This document shows, one piece after another, positions 1,538-13,143 of a DNA stretch of 13,143 nt; positions within the stretch are counted from its first letter, which is position 1, and every line of letters starts with the position of its first letter. Made by a program: the position numbers and the translations under genes. Under the pieces are notes generated by a model, which made no database searches, was not told the DNA's origin, and saw nothing but the letters and a program-made list of their open reading frames with translations. This DNA is from Planctomycetota bacterium (lineage in GTDB: Bacteria > Planctomycetota > Phycisphaerae > WQYP01), in the NCBI GenBank assembly GCA_021828925.1, contig JAJZCT010000030.1, positions 1-13,143 on the forward strand, written 5' to 3'.

Positions 1538-3040
<1,503 letters not shown>

Positions 3041-3042
3041 CG

Positions 3043-3243
3043 TCAATGAACCTCCTGAACTGGAATGGTATTGGTCTCAAGGTAATTATCCAACTGCGTA
3101 CGCCGATACTTTACCCGATGGCCGTCCTGAATGTACGCTATCTTCCCCTGTTTCCGCAGGGAGTAAAGCCGCCGCTGCGACATGTGCAGAATTTTCGCCG
3201 CCTGCTGCTCCGTGAACAGTTCCCCGGCGTTCTGGTCAATCAT
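3043..3243 (-). CDS. Small HTH excisionase-like DNA-binding protein
   Basis: A 66-residue protein consisting almost entirely of one MerR/excisionase-type helix-turn-helix domain. FTEQQAAKIL and RRLYSLRKQG form the first helices, KIAYIQDG looks like a wing, and a C-terminal RRTQLDNYLE helix follows. Proteins of this size and fold next to tyrosine recombinases act as recombination directionality factors or local regulators. Here it would bend the attachment-site DNA and bias the integrase toward excision; that is inferred from position. Its ATG overlaps the stop of the upstream regulator (ATGA), with AAGGAGG (3249-3255) five bases away, and its own stop lies two bases before the integrase ATG. 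All three are probably one transcript with coupled translation. Confidence 0.85.
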   Translation of the reverse strand: MIDQNAGELFTEQQAAKILHMSQRRLYSLRKQGKIAYIQDGHRVKYRRTQLDNYLETNTIPVQEVH

Positions 3244-3686
3244 TTGGTCCTCCTTGAATCCCTGACGCTTTTGGGCTTGGGTAACCCAAATTCCTTAAAC
3301 CAGTCGTAACGGCATTTTGCGTGCAATTCCGCATCCGCCCACAGCTGCTTAACATCCCTGAACGACACAAACGAGGCTTCCGGCCAGATAATCGGCTTTT
3401 CTGAACCGGGACTCAGGTACTTGTCCACCACCGCCATGAGTTTCAGCCAGAATGGATCATCATTGCCAACCGGTATGCCCTCCACTTCCGGAGGTTTCGG
3501 GAAATACACCGCGTGGAGGTGCCCGCGCGACACCAACCGCGATATGGCCATACGGCTGATATTCAGTATCCGCGCCGCCTGGGCCTGTGTAACCAACCCA
3601 TCCGGATATTGTCTGATCGCCGTCTCGTACCAGACCATCAGGGCGGTACCCTTGTCCTCTTCAGTTGGCATGGCGATATCTTTCAC
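3240..3686 (-). CDS. HTH regulator heading the excisionase-integrase operon
   Basis: A 148-residue protein from the GTG at 3686. Near residues 31-63 there is a clear helix-turn-helix (LVTQAQAARILN, then SRMAISRLVSRGHLHAVYF). This is followed by a more variable C-terminal half rich in aromatic and charged residues (DPFWLKLMAVVD, FVSFRDVKQLW), perhaps for dimerisation or partner contact. I do not recognise a named family beyond the HTH. The GTG is chosen because AGGAG (3695-3699) lies eight bases upstream and because the in-frame ATG at 3719 sits immediately after the predicted -10 box, upstream of the expected transcript start. An internal ATG at 3671 is also possible. The likely role is control of its own promoter, and hence of the operon, through the palindrome at 3756-3771. 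Confidence 0.8.
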   Translation of the reverse strand: MKDIAMPTEEDKGTALMVWYETAIRQYPDGLVTQAQAARILNISRMAISRLVSRGHLHAVYFPKPPEVEGIPVGNDDPFWLKLMAVVDKYLSPGSEKPIIWPEASFVSFRDVKQLWADAELHAKCRYDWFKEFGLPKPKSVRDSRRTK

Positions 3687-3719
3687 AAGTGTTTCTCCTA
3701 ACGAACCAACATCAAGCAT

Positions 3720-4654: not shown

Positions 4655-5428
4655 CTAATTATCCATTTTCGTTTCCAATTGGCCCACTTTTTCCACAATT
4701 CTGTCGGCAAAAACCTCAATCGGTGGCATGATCCAAAGGGCGGCCCAACCCATCCAGAGCACGGCGACTGATGCAAAGGTCAGGGCGGCGAAAGCGTCGC
4801 CCTTGAGGCCGATGGTGACTGCCACTACGCCCGGCATCAGGTGCCAATTCCAGCATCGAAGGGCGTGCAGGCGGACGCACGCCGGAGTGGTGGAAGCGTC
4901 GAGCTTCCCGTCGGTGCCCACTGGTGGCCACAGGCGAGCTTGCCCTCCCGATACCGTGCCGGCAATGACACACTGGTCACCGCTCAAAATATAGACTGCG
5001 AGCACCGGCCGGATCTTGGGAAATTCCGCCGCACAGGATCGAACGATCTCAATGGCGTTCGCAACAGTGCAGTTCAGCTCGATTTGCCGCCAGCGCCGCC
5101 TCCATGAAATGGTTGGTGCGCACAAGTAAGAGGGAAGAGCGGGGTTATCCTCGTCTATGCCTTCTCGCCCAAATTCCGCAGCATTTCGTGCGTGCTGGCG
5201 GATCGTAATTCGATCAAGCCGTTTCGCATTGTAATTTTGGGCTGCCCTAATAACTATTCCGGTTAGAAGGAAGGCTAGGAAAGTCACCATACCCGCGATG
5301 TATGCCGACGAAATAAACACTAAAAGGAATATCCAAACGGCAAATGCGATGCCGCCAAGGCCAAAGGCCACCCTATCGGCTCTTGGATCCGACATGATCT
5401 TAAATAACAAGTAAAATGTCCTGCGCAT
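4655..5428 (-). CDS. Membrane protein downstream of the Rhs gene; possible immunity protein
   Basis: I do not recognise the family. From the ATG at 5428 the product has 257 residues. Two adjacent hydrophobic segments lie at about 20-40 and 41-61. A soluble region of about 130 residues follows, with an arginine-rich patch (WRRRWRQ) and several cysteines. A further hydrophobic stretch at about 197-235 (VVAVTIGL, then LTFASVAVLWMGWAALWIM) precedes a charged C-terminal helix. No signal peptide is evident. This ATG has AAGG six bases upstream and lies 14 bases after the Rhs stop; an ATG at 5446 overlapping that stop and one at 5395 are alternatives. The tight spacing implies co-transcription with the Rhs gene. 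Genes at this position commonly encode the antidote to the Rhs tip, and a membrane protein would suit a membrane-acting tip, but this is inference. Confidence 0.75.
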   Translation of the reverse strand: MRRTFYLLFKIMSDPRADRVAFGLGGIAFAVWIFLLVFISSAYIAGMVTFLAFLLTGIVIRAAQNYNAKRLDRITIRQHARNAAEFGREGIDEDNPALPSYLCAPTISWRRRWRQIELNCTVANAIEIVRSCAAEFPKIRPVLAVYILSGDQCVIAGTVSGGQARLWPPVGTDGKLDASTTPACVRLHALRCWNWHLMPGVVAVTIGLKGDAFAALTFASVAVLWMGWAALWIMPPIEVFADRIVEKVGQLETKMDN

Positions 5429-5442
5429 AGATAACCTTACCG

Positions 5443-5670
5443 TCATTGGCAGCCGCACGAAGGTGCCCCCAGGGGGGCCAAGCCAATACCAATGCCTACA
5501 AGGCTGATGATAATCCCTGCTGGCGGAATAACGATCCCGACGCCGACCCCAATAACGCCGATAACACCGCCAGCAATGGTCAGGTCATTCCCAAGACATG
5601 TATGCCACGGCGGCACCGGATGGATTTTCTGCCACTGCGAATAGGGTATTCCACCGTACGGGGTCCCTGT
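5443..5670 (-). other. Variable C-terminal tip of the Rhs protein (glycine-rich hydrophobic hairpin)
   Basis: The 75 residues after the conserved DPWG are where Rhs proteins carry their exchangeable effector. Here residues 2517-2555 form two hydrophobic, glycine-spaced segments (TIAGGVIGVIGVGVGIVI and IIISLVGIGIGLAPLG) joined by a PPAG turn. A Cys lies before (2511) and a Cys-Gly-Cys after (2558-2560). This resembles a membrane-inserting glycine-zipper hairpin rather than an enzyme. It could be a pore-forming tip or simply a membrane anchor. No nuclease or deaminase motif is visible. Confidence 0.6.
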
Positions 5671-8600
5671 CCCCCACGGATCCACATTCCCCACCGGATT
5701 GCTCATCACAAATTGATACGTGTTGGCCCCGTTGATGTAACCTGCCGGGTCCTGACTGATCCACCGGCCAAGGGATGGCGAATAGTTTCTGTTGCGGGCG
5801 TAATATAATCCTGTCACCGGGTCGAGCGCCATGCCTTGATAGAGATTATCTACGGCGGGTTGCGTGCCTGCTGGTGGCGTGGACCAATCGGCATTTAATA
5901 CGGTGATGGTGCCGTACGGGCTATATACATATCTTTGCGTGACGTCCCATGTGCCGGTGGTGCTGTTGTAGCCCACAGTGGCCGTGGTATTCCAATTGGC
6001 GTCCTGCAGGAAATACAGCCGCGAGTTCGGCTGAATCACCCCTGCGGAATATGTATCCTGCAGCACAACGGCGTTGATATACGCCGCAGACCGGACTGTT
6101 TGCGATGTCACGTTGCTGCTGGCTGTGCCATCGGTGCGAGTCTCAATAGCCTGCCACGACGAATCGTAATAAATATAGTTGACGGTCCCGGCGGCGATGG
6201 TGTTGCCGCCTTGCGGATAGGTTTCCGTGATACGGTACCCCATCGCATTATACGTGTATTGAGCGATCACCTGCCCGGCGGAATCCTTCACGGCGACGAG
6301 TTGATTCCACGCATTGTATGTATACGTGTTGCCGACCTGATCCGTGGTCATATTTCCATTGGCGTCGTACGTCGGTGTGGTTTGGCCACTGATGCTGGTA
6401 ATCTGATTTTGCGCATTGGCGGTCTCGGTTTGGGTTGAACCCTGATTCGTGAACGACGACCAATTGCCCTGGCTGTCGAGGTTCCACGATTGGTAGGCCG
6501 ACCCGCCCTGTGTGCTGCTTGCCAGGCGGTTAAGCTGGTCATAGGTGAACGTTTGCGAATAGGCCGAGTCAAGCGTGTTATTCTTAGCCGTCACGTTTCC
6601 ATTTGCATCATAGCTGTAGGTGTAACCGTCCACCGTTACGCCGCTGGAATTCACCCAGTTCTGATTAACGACGCGGCCGAACTGGTCGAGGCCCACGTAT
6701 TGGTCCCCACCGGCACCAATGCTGCCGCTGGAACCGAGGTAGGTTAAGTTGATGCCCGTCTGCGGATGATTGCGCTGCACGATGGTGCTTAAGCCCAGAT
6801 AACTGTATTGTTCCAGCACCTGCCCGACACCACCGGAGTTGGCACCGTCGCTGATGGAATCCAACCGGCCGATGGCATTATCCAGCGCGCTGTTCAGGTT
6901 GGTGCCTGAATAGTTATAGTCGATCGTGCGTCCATTGGGGTAAACCATGCTGGTAATCCTTGAACCGTTGGCTGGACTGGAATAAGTATACTCCACCACC
7001 GGCGTGGTGGAAATATCCACCGCCCCGGTGACAGCCTGATACTGGAATGCCAACTGGCCCAGACCGTTATAGATGTTTTCCACCTGATTGACGATCTGCG
7101 TGCCCGCAGTGTCGGCGTAACTGGTGTAAAGATACGCCAAGCCCTGAGCATTGTAAGCGGTATCAATTCTTCTCACGCCGCCATCCACGCCCGCACCGAG
7201 CGTGGTAACGGTGTCGCTGATTTTGCGCCCAGCGGTGTCGTAGGTGTATTGATGAACGTTGCCATTGCGGTCGGTGCTCTGGATCACCTGACCCAAAGCA
7301 GAATAGGCAGTGGAAACAGTATCCGCAGTACCGGCAACAGCGGGATAGACGGTCTGGTAGAGCAGGTCGTTGCTGGTGATATTGCTGCCGGTGGCGGCGC
7401 TTACGCCGTAGATGTAGGTTGTGGTCTGGTTGCCGGTGGATGGGTCTTCGGCGGTCATACTGGTCTGGTCGCCGAGGCCGTCATATGTGTACAGTGTGGT
7501 CTGGTTCTGGTCGTTGGTGGGGTTACCACTGTTGACGGAGGGATCATACGCGGCGATGGTTTGTGTGGTTTCACCAAGGTTATTGTAATAACTGGCTGAT
7601 ACAATGCCGTTGGGATCGGTGGTTTCATACACTTCCCCGGCCGAATTGTAACTTGTAAGCGTAATCAGATCGCCCGCGAAGTTGGAATCAGTCACCGAAG
7701 TCGGCGCATCAGCCGGCCTGGCCCAGGGCGTGGCCGCTCCACCGGCTCCGGTTGGATTGGTCCCCGCATTGACTGTGGCAATCTGCCGGTCGGCAGCGTC
7801 ATAATAAGTGGCGGAATAATAGATTCTGGCACCGAGGCTGCTGTCGGTATTGCTTGCGGGCGTGACCGTCAGGCTGCCGTCGCTGTTAACCGTATCGGTA
7901 AACAATGCACCTTCGGCGGCACTGCCGAGAATTGGATCGGTGTTGAAGCGTTGAGCATGAACAGTTTCGATAAGATTGCCGTCGCCGTCATAACCGTAGG
8001 CGGTTTGATTGATGACCACATCGTTGGATACCGAGCCGGCGGCGGCATAGGTCAGTACCACCGACCCGCCGTTGTTGACCGCACCACCGTCGGTGGTGAA
8101 GGTATCGACGAGTTCATTGACGCCATTGTATACGTTCTTTGTGACCAGCCCGGTTGGGGCTACAGTCTCGATGACGTTCCCTCTTGGGCCGTAGAAGGTG
8201 TACGAGGTTAAGGCGGTTGCCGAAATGGTTCCGGTGGTGGGATCAACGCTGTAGGTCTGGTCTTCGTAATCGCGATTTTGGGAATCGTATTGACTGGTGG
8301 TGTAACCGACGAGTCCCGCAAGCACCGCACCGGGCGCGGCACTGGCCGCGGCGGCAATGGCGTTGGCGATGGTGGTGGCGGCACCGTTGAAGTTAAGTGT
8401 CGCCAGCGTATTGCCGAGGTTATCCAGTGAGTAGACGGTAATGCCGGGGTAGGCGTCATTGGCACTGGTAACAACCGCCCCGGAACCGTTCAGAGTCAGG
8501 CCCGTTTCTGTGGCGACCAGGCGATCCTCAAAATCGTAGCTCAGCAGACTGACCTGCTGAGTGCTGGCGGTGTTGCCATCGGGATACTCGATTACTTCAG

Positions 8601-11600
8601 TGACATTGGAATCACCAACGGAGCCATTGTCATAGATATAGGATTGAACCTCCGTCATATTGTTGCCGGTGCCGGCATTGGAGCCGGTGAAGGGTTGGCC
8701 ATTGTTGGTTGTATCGTTTGTGCCCACCCAATTGGAGACCACCCGGCCCAGGGAATCGTAGACCGTATCGTGGACGGTGCCGTTGGCGTCGATGATCTGA
8801 TATTGGCGGCCATCGGCATCGTACCCGTAATAGGTGGCATAATAGTTGCCGTTGGGGGCCTGGCCTGACAATTCATTGGTGATTTTAGTACCGCTATACG
8901 GGCTGTCCTGATTTGTGGCCAGATAGGTGGCGTTGGTAATATTGGCATAGGCGTCGGACTCCACATGTTGTCCACCGGCGTTGTACAACGCGCGGGACAG
9001 GCTCTGAATGGTGAATTGGGGCGCTGTACTGGTGCCGTCGCCAGTTAAATTCAGCACATTGTCCAGACCGCTGCCAGTGCCATTTCCCGGTATAAAGCCG
9101 GGCAATACGGGGATCACCGTTTCGCCGTTGCTTCCACCAAGGCTGTAGCTGATCGGCGTATTGACGCTGAAGGTTATGGTTTCATCATAAGTTGCGCCAT
9201 ATGTAACACCACCAGTTGTATAAGTGTACGGCACCTCCACGCGCGTCATGACAATTGGACCCGTGGTCGTCAGGGTATTGTTGGAGGTGTCCAGTGCCAC
9301 ACCGGTCAGCGTGAAGATGGCACGGTCGGCGTCATCATAGACATAAAGCGTGATGCTGCCACCGGGTGAAATTGATTCAAGGGCGCGGCCAAGGTTATCG
9401 ACATAATTGGTGGTAACTAAATTTAGCCCGCCGCCGGTTGGTGTGGCCCAGCCCGAGGGCAGTTGCGGCACACCGTACTGGTTGTAGCCGTTGGAGCCGA
9501 AGGCCAGCGTTCCGCCCGGATAGGTTCCGGAATAGTTTTCCAGATTGGAAAGATTGGCGGTGTTGACATCCTGCACGCTTTGGATGGCTGCGCCGGTGGC
9601 ATTGTCATAAGCGGTATACGTAATAAATCCCTTGGCATCCATGGTCCATACGGGCTGGCCGAATTGGTTGTAAACGGTCTGGGTGGTCGTGGCGGTGCCG
9701 GAACCGTTCTGGCTGGTGGAGACCACGGGATTGGTCGTCGTCAAATCGGCGATCTGGTTGGTGACATAGCCGGACGCATTATTCTGCCAGGAATAGCCGT
9801 AGGTTGTGGTTTCGGGTACCGAGCCGTTACCGGCGGAACTTTGATATTGGGTAAAGGCGGCTTCGGGGAAAATCGTGTTGCCGTTGGAATCCAGATGTTG
9901 GATGTAAGTATAGGAATCCTGTTCAATGGGCGTGCCGCCGCTTCCCTGCTCGACATAATCCGCCTCGACATACCCGGCTGCGCCACCGGGTGCGGTGGTT
10001 GTGGCAGTGGTACTACCGTAATAAGTGGTACTGTTGATCAGGCCGGTATTGCTGTAAACCAACCCCTCGGATATTCCCAGATCGGCGTACGGTTCGATGG
10101 CTGCTTCAATGGCCGAAGCCGTGGTTGCGCCATTGAGTATCGGGGAATTGAGGTTAATGGCCGAGGGCGAAATGGTTTCAATCATTCGGCCCTGGCTGTC
10201 ATAGGTGGTCGCGGTTATCCAAACCTTCCCCTGATTGGTGGAATTTCCGGAATCGGTGTTGTCAACAAATATCTTCAGGAGTTCGTCGCCGTTGACGTTG
10301 GTGTACACGATGTTCTGGTTGCCGTCCTGCAGCGTCTGCGTGGTGCGGACCATCCAGGTATTGTAACTGTCGCCCACGGCAAAACTGGGGTTTTGGTAAT
10401 AGGCGTAGGTTTGTGTGCCCAAACCGTTGGTGGCGGCGGACCCGCCCTGAGAGAAGCTTTCCAGCGTGACCTGATGATTGGAATTGTATTGGAAGTAATG
10501 GTCCGCGTAAGGGGCGACAACCGATGCCGGGGCATCAAACGCGTCGTAGCTGGTGCCGTTGGCGGTGTTGTATGCGGCCAGCGCCCCCTGGAGCCGGACG
10601 AACGCGTTGGGGCCAAAGTCATATTGCAGGCCACCAACGAAGCCAACCGTGATGCCGGATTGCGTCCGGTCAGCGGGAGTGTAATAACGGTAACAGGATT
10701 GGCCGATGACGTTGCCGCCGCCATCCTCAATGGTGACGGTTTGCAAATCCCCGGCGTTGCCGTATTGCATGTCGCCACTGTAGCTGCCGTCATAATAGGT
10801 CAGGGCCATCTGACGGTAGAGTGTGGCCGAGCTTTGCCCGGCCCGCTGGATGGATTGCTGAATCAGAGAAACCCGCCCGGCGTTGACGCCGGTGGAGATA
10901 TAGCTGTAGATGAACCTCTCCGTGTCACCGACGGCGTCGGTCTCGGTGACGCTGGTAAGCTGGCCCGAACTATTGTATGCATAAGTAATCACGTTGCCTT
11001 GCGCGTCCACCTGCTGCTTGATCAAGCCCTGCACATTTGCGGCGTTCCCGCCGGAAAAATCATAAAAAACATATTGATTGCCGCTCGTATCCGTCATGGT
11101 ATACGTGCCGCCGGTGGAGTTGTGGGTCAGCACATTATTCTCGCCGCTGTCACCGGGTGTGGCGAGCCGGTATTGGCCCGTCCCGGTGTCGTAGTTGAAC
11201 TGAAGTTGGCTGTAGGCGCTGCCGACGACAACGATGTCGGGATTGGCCCCGTTGTCCCCTCCACCGACGTTTTCAATGAAAGCCCCGCTGCCACTGGACC
11301 AGCCGTTGCCCGACATGCTGCTGGGCGTAAACACTGTCGTGGTGGTCCAATTCAGACTGGTATCCCAGGCGCTTCCGAAGCCGGTGGATAAAAGACCCGG
11401 GCTGGTAATTTCCGGCGAACCGCTGGAATAAGCCACAGGCGAACCGGAACTTCCGGGGCACGGGTTTGGATTTGGGGCGGGACCATTTCCCGGCGGGGTA
11501 TCCTTCTGGTTCGGATTGGAGCCTAAATCTCCGTAGTTGTTGTTGACGCCGGAGGTATTATTCTGGCTGGTGTTGGTGTTCTGGATGATTGCACCGGGGT

Positions 11601-13143
11601 CTGCTGGCATCACCAGCACCCCCGATGAACCGAAACTGCCGCCGCCCGAAGACGCCGGGGTAAAGCTCCCCACCGTGTATTGCGCACCGAGTTGTGGTAC
11701 CGTCACACTGCCGGATAGGCTCAAGATTTGTGCGCTCTCCCACGACGCGGCATATACCGGATGGCTTGCCGAACTCAGCGCCACATTGGTGTCCAGGCCG
11801 CTGCTCACCGGCCCCGTCACCGGCGGCTGCGGCAGATACATTCCCCAACGCGTAGACGCCCCCGTGGTCATGGACACCGCCGAACTGTACGGCGAGCCGC
11901 CGTTGGCGTTGACCGCCTGCACGCGGAATAGATACGTTGTGTTCGCCGAGAGATTCCCCGGCAAATAGGTGTCTTCCGATCCTGTGCCACCGCTGGCCAC
12001 CAGACTCCATGTCTGGCCATTGTCCGTCGATTGCCGCACGTTAAATGAGGTGGCACCCTGCAGCGCCGCCCAAGTTACCCGCCCGTCACTGGCGGAGAAC
12101 GCCTCGGCCTGCATGTAATACGGCATCTCCGGAACCAGTGTCTGGCTGGTGGCCGCCCCCACGGAAACATTGGTGAACGCGGCGGTGGAACTGGAACTTG
12201 ATCCGCCGCTGTCGGCGGCCAGGCCGATCACCGGAGCCGCGCCCAAGGCTACGGCCGAGGTCTGGCCGACCAGCGACCAGTCTACATCGTTGGTCGAAAC
12301 GTATCCGGAGATCACACCGTTCTGGAGCGTCAGTTTGAGCCAGATGGCTCCTCTCGCCAGCGTGTAACCACCATCGTAGCCGGGGTCGGTGGCCTGATCG
12401 CCTGCGGCGTTGCGGGCCAGCATCACCACCCCTTCACTGGGGCTGAGAAAAATGCCAACAAAAGCCGCGTTGGCATCACCGCTGGCGCGGATCATCAGCC
12501 CCGCCTTGGTCTGAGAGCCAGTGTTGGTCTGGCTGCTTACCTGGGCGATAATCTGCTGATTGCTTCCCAGCGACTGGTAAACGTAATTGAAACTGTCGGA
12601 TGGCGCGCCGATGTAATACGCCGCATGGGTGTCGCCAGCGATGTTCCCCGTACTGGTGATACTGAAGGTTCCGCCCGTGGCGTAGGAGCCCGAACCGCCG
12701 GTGGCTCCGATGGCGGTGGTGCTCCATGGGGCCGGAAGAGAGGAAGCGGCGGTGGTTGCCGAGGCGGTGTTGCTTGCGGCGGCCAAGTTACCGGCGTTCT
12801 CAGCCAGAACGCGGTAATAATATGTGGTGGATCCCGCCAGGGCGTTGTCGGTGTAGCTTGTGGTACCTTGGGCCACCATCGAAACAGTGACGAAATTCAC
12901 ATCATCGGTGCTGCGTTGGATCAGCAAATCGGTTTCATTGGCGGCGGTATTGGGATCGGTCCAGGAAACATTGATCTGGGCCGCATTAACGGCTATCGCG
13001 GCCAAATTCGTGACCGCACTTGGCGCGGCCGAGGCTGGAGCTACCGATACGTTGGCGAATGTGGCGGTGGAAAGTGCACTGTTGTTATGCGCCGTTACGG
13101 CCAGCCCCGCCAAGGCGCTGGTGTTCATGGCGATGTACTGTGT
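5443..13143 (-). CDS. Giant Rhs/YD-repeat protein with FN3 and ConA-like modules (5' end missing)
   Basis: At least 2,566 residues. The frame is open through the right window edge (TQYIA precedes the first internal Met), so the N-terminus and any signal peptide are missing. Counting from the Met at 13128: residues 1-30 end a ConA-like module; FN3 lies at about 35-127; a complete ConA/laminin-G-like module at about 134-325; a second FN3 at about 332-424; an Asn/Pro/Gly-rich linker at about 490-575; and YD repeats at about 640-2453 (YTYDTAGRKISD, YGYDGDGNLIET, YTYNAMGYRITE). The Rhs core closes with GRWISQDPAG...NPVGNVDPWG (2454-2486), followed by a 75-residue tip. Such proteins build a hollow beta shell enclosing a C-terminal toxin and act at or outside the cell surface. 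FN3 and ConA-like modules suggest glycan or surface binding. No PAAR or VgrG part is visible. Only five cysteines occur, three of them in the tip. Confidence 0.93.
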   Translation of the reverse strand, partial: TQYIAMNTSALAGLAVTAHNNSALSTATFANVSVAPASAAPSAVTNLAAIAVNAAQINVSWTDPNTAANETDLLIQRSTDDVNFVTVSMVAQGTTSYTDNALAGSTTYYYRVLAENAGNLAAASNTASATTAASSLPAPWSTTAIGATGGSGSYATGGTFSITSTGNIAGDTHAAYYIGAPSDSFNYVYQSLGSNQQIIAQVSSQTNTGSQTKAGLMIRASGDANAAFVGIFLSPSEGVVMLARNAAGDQATDPGYDGGYTLARGAIWLKLTLQNGVISGYVSTNDVDWSLVGQTSAVALGAAPVIGLAADSGGSSSSSTAAFTNVSVGAATSQTLVPEMPYYMQAEAFSASDGRVTWAALQGATSFNVRQSTDNGQTWSLVASGGTGSEDTYLPGNLSANTTYLFRVQAVNANGGSPYSSAVSMTTGASTRWGMYLPQPPVTGPVSSGLDTNVALSSASHPVYAASWESAQILSLSGSVTVPQLGAQYTVGSFTPASSGGGSFGSSGVLVMPADPGAIIQNTNTSQNNTSGVNNNYGDLGSNPNQKDTPPGNGPAPNPNPCPGSSGSPVAYSSGSPEITSPGLLSTGFGSAWDTSLNWTTTTVFTPSSMSGNGWSSGSGAFIENVGGGDNGANPDIVVVGSAYSQLQFNYDTGTGQYRLATPGDSGENNVLTHNSTGGTYTMTDTSGNQYVFYDFSGGNAANVQGLIKQQVDAQGNVITYAYNSSGQLTSVTETDAVGDTERFIYSYISTGVNAGRVSLIQQSIQRAGQSSATLYRQMALTYYDGSYSGDMQYGNAGDLQTVTIEDGGGNVIGQSCYRYYTPADRTQSGITVGFVGGLQYDFGPNAFVRLQGALAAYNTANGTSYDAFDAPASVVAPYADHYFQYNSNHQVTLESFSQGGSAATNGLGTQTYAYYQNPSFAVGDSYNTWMVRTTQTLQDGNQNIVYTNVNGDELLKIFVDNTDSGNSTNQGKVWITATTYDSQGRMIETISPSAINLNSPILNGATTASAIEAAIEPYADLGISEGLVYSNTGLINSTTYYGSTTATTTAPGGAAGYVEADYVEQGSGGTPIEQDSYTYIQHLDSNGNTIFPEAAFTQYQSSAGNGSVPETTTYGYSWQNNASGYVTNQIADLTTTNPVVSTSQNGSGTATTTQTVYNQFGQPVWTMDAKGFITYTAYDNATGAAIQSVQDVNTANLSNLENYSGTYPGGTLAFGSNGYNQYGVPQLPSGWATPTGGGLNLVTTNYVDNLGRALESISPGGSITLYVYDDADRAIFTLTGVALDTSNNTLTTTGPIVMTRVEVPYTYTTGGVTYGATYDETITFSVNTPISYSLGGSNGETVIPVLPGFIPGNGTGSGLDNVLNLTGDGTSTAPQFTIQSLSRALYNAGGQHVESDAYANITNATYLATNQDSPYSGTKITNELSGQAPNGNYYATYYGYDADGRQYQIIDANGTVHDTVYDSLGRVVSNWVGTNDTTNNGQPFTGSNAGTGNNMTEVQSYIYDNGSVGDSNVTEVIEYPDGNTASTQQVSLLSYDFEDRLVATETGLTLNGSGAVVTSANDAYPGITVYSLDNLGNTLATLNFNGAATTIANAIAAAASAAPGAVLAGLVGYTTSQYDSQNRDYEDQTYSVDPTTGTISATALTSYTFYGPRGNVIETVAPTGLVTKNVYNGVNELVDTFTTDGGAVNNGGSVVLTYAAAGSVSNDVVINQTAYGYDGDGNLIETVHAQRFNTDPILGSAAEGALFTDTVNSDGSLTVTPASNTDSSLGARIYYSATYYDAADRQIATVNAGTNPTGAGGAATPWARPADAPTSVTDSNFAGDLITLTSYNSAGEVYETTDPNGIVSASYYNNLGETTQTIAAYDPSVNSGNPTNDQNQTTLYTYDGLGDQTSMTAEDPSTGNQTTTYIYGVSAATGSNITSNDLLYQTVYPAVAGTADTVSTAYSALGQVIQSTDRNGNVHQYTYDTAGRKISDTVTTLGAGVDGGVRRIDTAYNAQGLAYLYTSYADTAGTQIVNQVENIYNGLGQLAFQYQAVTGAVDISTTPVVEYTYSSPANGSRITSMVYPNGRTIDYNYSGTNLNSALDNAIGRLDSISDGANSGGVGQVLEQYSYLGLSTIVQRNHPQTGINLTYLGSSGSIGAGGDQYVGLDQFGRVVNQNWVNSSGVTVDGYTYSYDANGNVTAKNNTLDSAYSQTFTYDQLNRLASSTQGGSAYQSWNLDSQGNWSSFTNQGSTQTETANAQNQITSISGQTTPTYDANGNMTTDQVGNTYTYNAWNQLVAVKDSAGQVIAQYTYNAMGYRITETYPQGGNTIAAGTVNYIYYDSSWQAIETRTDGTASSNVTSQTVRSAAYINAVVLQDTYSAGVIQPNSRLYFLQDANWNTTATVGYNSTTGTWDVTQRYVYSPYGTITVLNADWSTPPAGTQPAVDNLYQGMALDPVTGLYYARNRNYSPSLGRWISQDPAGYINGANTYQFVMSNPVGNVDPWGTGTPYGGIPYSQWQKIHPVPPWHTCLGNDLTIAGGVIGVIGVGVGIVIPPAGIIISLVGIGIGLAPLGAPSCGCQ

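Follow-up and report, generated by a model that had tools for sequence, protein, structure and literature searches.

The Rhs protein encoded in the 13,143-nucleotide stretch of DNA analysed here (the window) ends in a 75-residue tip. With a probability of roughly 0.55, we consider this tip to be an exchangeable, membrane-inserting effector of a polymorphic Rhs toxin, with the membrane protein encoded downstream acting as its immunity protein. The tip is most likely directed at the membranes of rival cells, where it may form pores; it might conceivably also contain a disulfide. If toxic, the tip would be unusually small for an Rhs effector that acts on membranes. It would then allow one to probe the minimal length of sequence deliverable into a membrane from an Rhs shell. 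An open-licence literature search found no study of Rhs toxins from the planctomycete phylum.

Table 1. Features of the window, in window numbering, with the basis for each assignment.
Feature	Position	Strand	Basis or remark
Rhs/YD-repeat protein, C-terminal part	5443..13143	-	fn3, RHS repeats, Rhs core; open at the window edge
Core end with DPAG-X19-DPWG (Tse5 aspartyl self-cleavage spacing)	5671..5751	-	Motif and Tse5 chain match
75-residue Rhs C-terminal tip	5446..5670	-	Sequence, core-domain end, hydropathy, model, shuffles
257-aa orphan membrane protein, candidate immunity protein	4655..5428	-	ATG 14 bases past the Rhs stop
Small HTH regulator-like gene	3240..3719	-	Matches below Pfam cut-offs only
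Small HTH_17 / excisionase-like gene	3043..3243	-	
Tyrosine recombinase (integrase) ORF	1538..3046	-	Crosses tRNA-Arg on the opposite strand
tRNA-Arg (acg), likely island integration site	1690..1765	+	
25-bp repeat, putative attachment site	1743..1767	+	Exact second copy elsewhere on the contig

The Rhs ORF, which ends at 5443, covers the C-terminal 2,561 residues of the protein when read from the first ATG within the window. The ATG at 13128 is internal: the full database protein has 3,169 amino acids and starts beyond the window, at about 14952 in window numbering. Pfam scans of the protein reveal DUF1349, fn3 and RHS repeats (PF05593, E 1.1e-23, above cut-off). The Rhs-associated core (TIGR03696, E 2.4e-18, above cut-off) extends to residue 2486 of the window ORF and leaves the predicted 75 residues as the tip. 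YD/RHS repeats combined with an Rhs-associated core are the hallmark of Rhs polymorphic toxins, and by the sequence features examined the protein is one of these. The window is carried by contig C198 of a 4.5 Mb draft genome in 200 contigs. Relatives of the Rhs protein from named records are planctomycete MAGs, part of them labelled Phycisphaerales, which suggests a planctomycete source. No PAAR domain was found in the full protein by Pfam scans, which a divergent copy could escape. VgrG (G000:C134:2100-3569) and TssK (G000:C124:11751-13016) are coded in the genome, both above family cut-offs, hence the genome probably has a type VI secretion system. This system is a possible delivery route for the Rhs protein.

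The C-terminal end of the core was compared to the solved Tse5 chain, giving a match of E 2.5e-8 over residues 238-310 of a 385-residue query in which the tip starts at 311. The match thus reaches right up to the tip. In Tse5, the available text of the source describes a DPXG-X19-DPXG motif of which D1141 and D1164 are required for a cut between L1168 and I1169, with this cut required for toxicity (PMC10684867). The putative self-cleavage motif of the window protein has the same X19 spacing and stands where the original prediction had placed the release point, at DPWG; by analogy, cleavage probably occurs near DPWG. The residue following DPWG is a Thr, where Tse5 has a Leu; over 192 tips, this position is Leu in 107 and Thr in 19. 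Across 193 collected ends, the motif spacing is X19 in 78 and X20 in 12, while 97 fall outside the strict pattern.

These 193 unique Rhs ends were derived from loci and from proteins chosen for core similarity, the core search yielding 56 proteins including the Rhs protein itself. Identical ends were merged, and near-identical alleles (e.g. L017/L019) were kept apart. Omission of five ends incomplete at a contig end, and of two more shorter than 20 aa, left 186 tips (185 of at least 30 aa, 181 of at least 40 aa), some of the very short ones likely reflecting mis-set boundaries. The sequence VGNVDPWG closes the core in 17 of the collected ends, including that of the window, and the other 16 carry at least 13 different tips as judged by eye. 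The last 25 core residues are identical in three ends, again including the window's. One of these comparisons lies within the same genome (L006), where the 25 residues preceding the tip are identical and divergence sets in from the first tip residue. The tip is real and exchangeable, with a sharp boundary at DPWG. As the 16 other VGNVDPWG ends bear other tips, the core is conserved while the tip swaps, the outcome that the original check looked for. The opposite outcome, a single tip maintained throughout the relatives, was not observed, and the 17 ends with identical last eight core residues and many tips constitute a natural experiment.

The search for homologues of the tip returned no convincing candidate. 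In the protein collection, 36 candidates sharing words with the tip (0.55-1.75x protein length) included only the tip itself at E <= 1. Among 101 relative genomes, 23 gave a match at E <= 0.1, the best besides the tip itself at E 0.00124 (21 bits), and five further genomes from a 397-genome sample of the class gave matches at E 0.001-0.003 (about 20 bits). These five, as well as two weak matches in the tip's own genome, were rejected: their 2.6-3.2-kb loci contain no Rhs core and the frames look unrelated. Within these loci the E-values drop as far as 7e-7, since the database was then the single locus itself. With no convincing homologue, conservation lends no support to the tip. Among the solved chains searched, none matched it significantly (best E 0.54), and PADLOC has no family for tip or neighbour. 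No Pfam domain falls within the tip among the best stretches listed for the whole protein, and in the viral contigs searched neither the Rhs end nor the neighbour nor the island's Rep has a relative.

The tip consists of a linker, Cys25, a first hydrophobic segment (about residues 30-48), a PP turn at residues 49-50, a second segment (about 51-69) and a C-terminal SCGCQ, with K15 and D29 as the sole charged residues. Membrane segments were called using Kyte-Doolittle windows rather than a trained predictor, the 19-residue maxima being 2.42 and 2.06, and the two predicted segments around a PP turn are thus borne out. The two-segment hydrophobicity was reached by 7 of 20,000 shuffled tip sequences and by none of 17,500 random 75-aa pieces taken upstream of the collected tips, and ranks second among the 181 complete tips of at least 40 aa. 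The hydrophobicity of the hairpin is beyond chance. A single-sequence AlphaFold2 model contains a short helix at residues 10-16 followed by helices at 21-45 and 49-63. The best model has a mean pLDDT of 63, with 72-79 across residues 31-60; the remaining four score 43-55. This low-confidence helix-turn-helix is compatible with a hairpin without proving it, and together with the sequence it supports the hydrophobic hairpin that had been proposed.

The segments had also been described as glycine zippers. They are indeed hydrophobic and Gly-rich, but the zipper itself is not supported: the three GxxxG pairs in the hydrophobic stretch are reached by 46% of shuffles, no more than composition yields, while (G/A/S)xxxGxxx(G/A/S) is absent, as is GxxxGxxxT by the Gly positions. 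Five G-x6-G pairs (3% of shuffles) were noticed post hoc and are not used as evidence. The predicted Cys count could be confirmed, with Cys at 557, 812, 2511, 2558 and 2560 of the window ORF, three of the five within the last 51 residues (tip positions 25, 72 and 74); the full protein has seven. Cys enrichment is common to the collected tips generally, at 1.24% in 185 tips versus 0.45% in up to 600 aa preceding them. At the former rate, at least three Cys per 75 residues are expected by chance with a probability of about 0.07.

The candidate immunity protein, whose ORF could be extended to 5458, has two N-terminal hydrophobic segments, a middle stretch and one C-terminal hydrophobic segment. 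The membrane-protein neighbour of the original prediction is thus supported. Its structure model is too poor for use (pLDDT 49.7). Among 2,722 candidates, it retrieved only itself at E <= 0.1. A remote relative is encoded in G000:C36 and G024:C48 (three aligners put the identity at 23-27%, with E 3e-7 for the pair and E 1.4e-5 in the genome search). In both cases it is the second ORF past an Rhs remnant, with another ORF in between, and the tip of the remnant is rich in Cys without clearly resembling a hairpin. The proximity to an Rhs remnant links the neighbour family to Rhs cassettes. Besides these two genomes, six have weak neighbour matches, including G023 and G071; those in G149, G360, G047 and G191 have no Rhs nearby and were dismissed as chance hydrophobic matches. 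To compare across the set, the neighbour was defined as the ORF of greatest length whose start falls between -40 and +250 bases relative to the stop, which was available for 130 of the 186 tips. Both tips with at least two segments and a readable neighbour have a neighbour with at least two segments (2 of 2), compared to 28 of 128 other tips (Fisher P 0.052), while one-segment tips run in the opposite direction with 2 of 14. The association between hairpin tips and membrane neighbours is thus weak across the set. We consider the protein downstream of the window tip a likely immunity protein, judging from its position, its hydrophobicity and its relative near an Rhs remnant.

In the mechanism we propose, the Rhs shell would be produced with the tip enclosed, and the aspartyl-protease plug bearing DPAG-X19-DPWG would cut beside DPWG, as its motif suggests (in Tse5, one residue past DPxG). 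Once free, the tip would insert both hydrophobic segments, folded as a hairpin, into a membrane of a competitor cell, and self-association of the tip could make this membrane leak. The neighbour would shield the producer, perhaps by binding the hairpin within the membrane, a role to which its position, its hydrophobicity and the relative near an Rhs remnant point. The three Cys would be located on one side of such a hairpin and might possibly pair as a disulfide outside the cytoplasm.

Such an arrangement resembles Tse5/Tsi5 of Pseudomonas aeruginosa in outline, as far as the available text of the sources goes; the sequences do not establish kinship of the tip with Tse5-CT. Both systems combine an Rhs shell with a DPxG-X19-DPxG self-cleavage plug (PMC10684867, PMC9637101). 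Both have a membrane-acting C-terminal fragment without predicted enzymatic activity and an integral-membrane immunity protein, here by prediction. Tsi5, with two predicted transmembrane regions, protects from Tse5-CT (PMC10684867/PMC9637101). The tip differs in its size (75 versus 149 residues), and the window protein in its N-terminal DUF1349 and fn3 domains, the lack of a detected PAAR domain, its planctomycete setting and its integrative island. A pore-forming Rhs tip had been presented as unusual in kind, which does not hold as Tse5 is one (PMC10684867). The ionophore toxins of CDI systems likewise have an exchangeable membrane-acting C-terminal tip and a hydrophobic immunity protein, CdiI. 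In that system a five-helix ionophore domain is accompanied by an entry domain, and the immunity proteins measure 72-100 residues (PMC11630599), whereas we find a two-helix hairpin (in a low-confidence model), a 257-residue neighbour and an Rhs carrier rather than CdiA. That both Tse5-CT and the CDI ionophore domains exceed the window tip in size speaks against our reading. The glycine-zipper toxins EsxX, TelE and TspA share a Gly-rich hydrophobic segment near the C-terminus, and EsxX and TspA have membrane-protein immunity, according to the text available (PMC12744356). Their secretion systems differ, however, and their zipper pattern, (G/A/S)xxxGxxxG or GxxxGxxx(G/S/T), is absent from the window tip.

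Three other readings of the tip need to be weighed. The hairpin could be what remains of a longer tip that has lost its toxic domain, having once served for entry or translocation; the protein would now be harmless or deliver the hairpin alone. Longer tips of this kind exist (P0006/L100, P0017 and P0043), in which a hydrophobic hairpin soon past DPxG is followed by about 50-240 residues, and possible transposase-like debris (HTH_Tnp_1, below cut-off) lies ~400 bases past the neighbour. Against such a loss, the 257-aa gene starts 14 bases past the stop with no trace of a domain between, though a clean deletion is possible; the tip terminates in a Cys-Gly-Cys tail rather than in mid-helix, and the neighbour is a membrane protein, as expected if it answers to the hairpin. 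We therefore regard domain loss as unlikely. It is quite unlikely that the hairpin is a plain C-terminal anchor that holds the Rhs protein on the producer. The hydrophobicity of the segments would suffice for spanning a membrane and some other collected tips end in a single hydrophobic tail, but an anchor should be conserved, whereas close relatives with the same core end bear other tips and 157 of the 186 tips have no such segment. The self-cleavage motif would moreover remove the anchor.

The remaining alternative has the tip working by other means, such as binding a target membrane protein or metal/thiol chemistry at the CxC, its hydrophobicity serving for entry only. CxC or CC occurs within the last 12 residues of 7 of 185 tips, compared to 1.3 on average and at most 6 in shuffles, and this excess implies that the tail might itself be functional. 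The lack of a PADLOC family, a significant solved relative or a Pfam domain in the tip argues against it, as do the small number of charged residues (two) and, presumably, the little room for an enzymatic fold; we hold this to be about as unlikely as the anchor. The tips that share a CxC/CC tail with the window tip are otherwise different (L071, L199, P0030, P0056, L192 and L087).

The Rhs gene and its neighbour, which in the reading we prefer encode effector and immunity protein, appear to be carried together on a mobile DNA element. The 25-bp repeat consists of the final bases of tRNA-Arg plus two, and its second copy lies beyond the window at contig positions 29277-29301 (17103-17127 in window numbering). 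The island so delimited (C198 13917-29301) measures 15,385 bp with both repeat copies counted. Besides the integrase and the excisionase-like gene, it holds the complete Rhs gene with its neighbour and encodes a Rep of 439 aa that belongs to the Phage_GPA family (PF05840, E 1.2e-20). In G001:C104, a related integrase (with one stop within the match), an excisionase-like gene and Rep occur within 3.7 kb with no Rhs between, the contig ending inside Rep. The island contents and this Rhs-free set make the Rhs pair resemble cargo carried by a satellite-like integrative element. A literature search for Rhs toxins on elements of this type brought up only a paper on a virus structure database. The search for an empty site of the island gave no clean example: TrpRS was found in seven of eight genomes of the genus, and in the six besides G000, tRNA-Arg falls within the fetched stretch only in G003. 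At that tRNA-Arg (L233, G003:C32, 3870-6479), part of the tRNA is repeated 2.5 kb away, which points to another insertion in this related genome.

The core end was also matched at E <= 1e-10 in 22 of 28 family genomes, the own genome included, with up to 48 matches each. Sixty stretches (L140-L199) were picked for holding such matches, and 33 of them contain at least two core ends on one strand at a median spacing of 2.5 kb. Arrays of core-end/tip cassettes, one every 1.1-4.2 kb, are seen in L208, L140, L168, L155 and others. These resemble the orphan rhs-CT/rhsI modules of Salmonella, displaced core fragments with a tip and a neighbour gene that supply new tips by recombination, as the accessible text describes them (PMC3967940). 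The cassettes found here are far more numerous. A broader and rather doubtful picture would combine a minimal two-helix, possibly disulfide-closed, 75-residue membrane toxin, half the size of Tse5-CT, with a planctomycete Rhs shell. This shell gene would be the largest of a 15-kb mobile tRNA-Arg island (integrase, excisionase-like gene, phage-type Rep), supplied by genome-wide orphan tip/neighbour cassettes.

A second class of hydrophobic tips was observed in the collection, in which the last 20 residues are hydrophobic, some having a basic stretch and Cys. Sel1-repeat proteins follow such tips at L027:4847-5740 (+) and L166:9276-10544 (-), and are possible immunity proteins. Within this class, the neighbours scanned were those of these two tips. 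A tip lacking the hydrophobic tail is likewise followed by a Sel1 protein, at L166:2566-4401.
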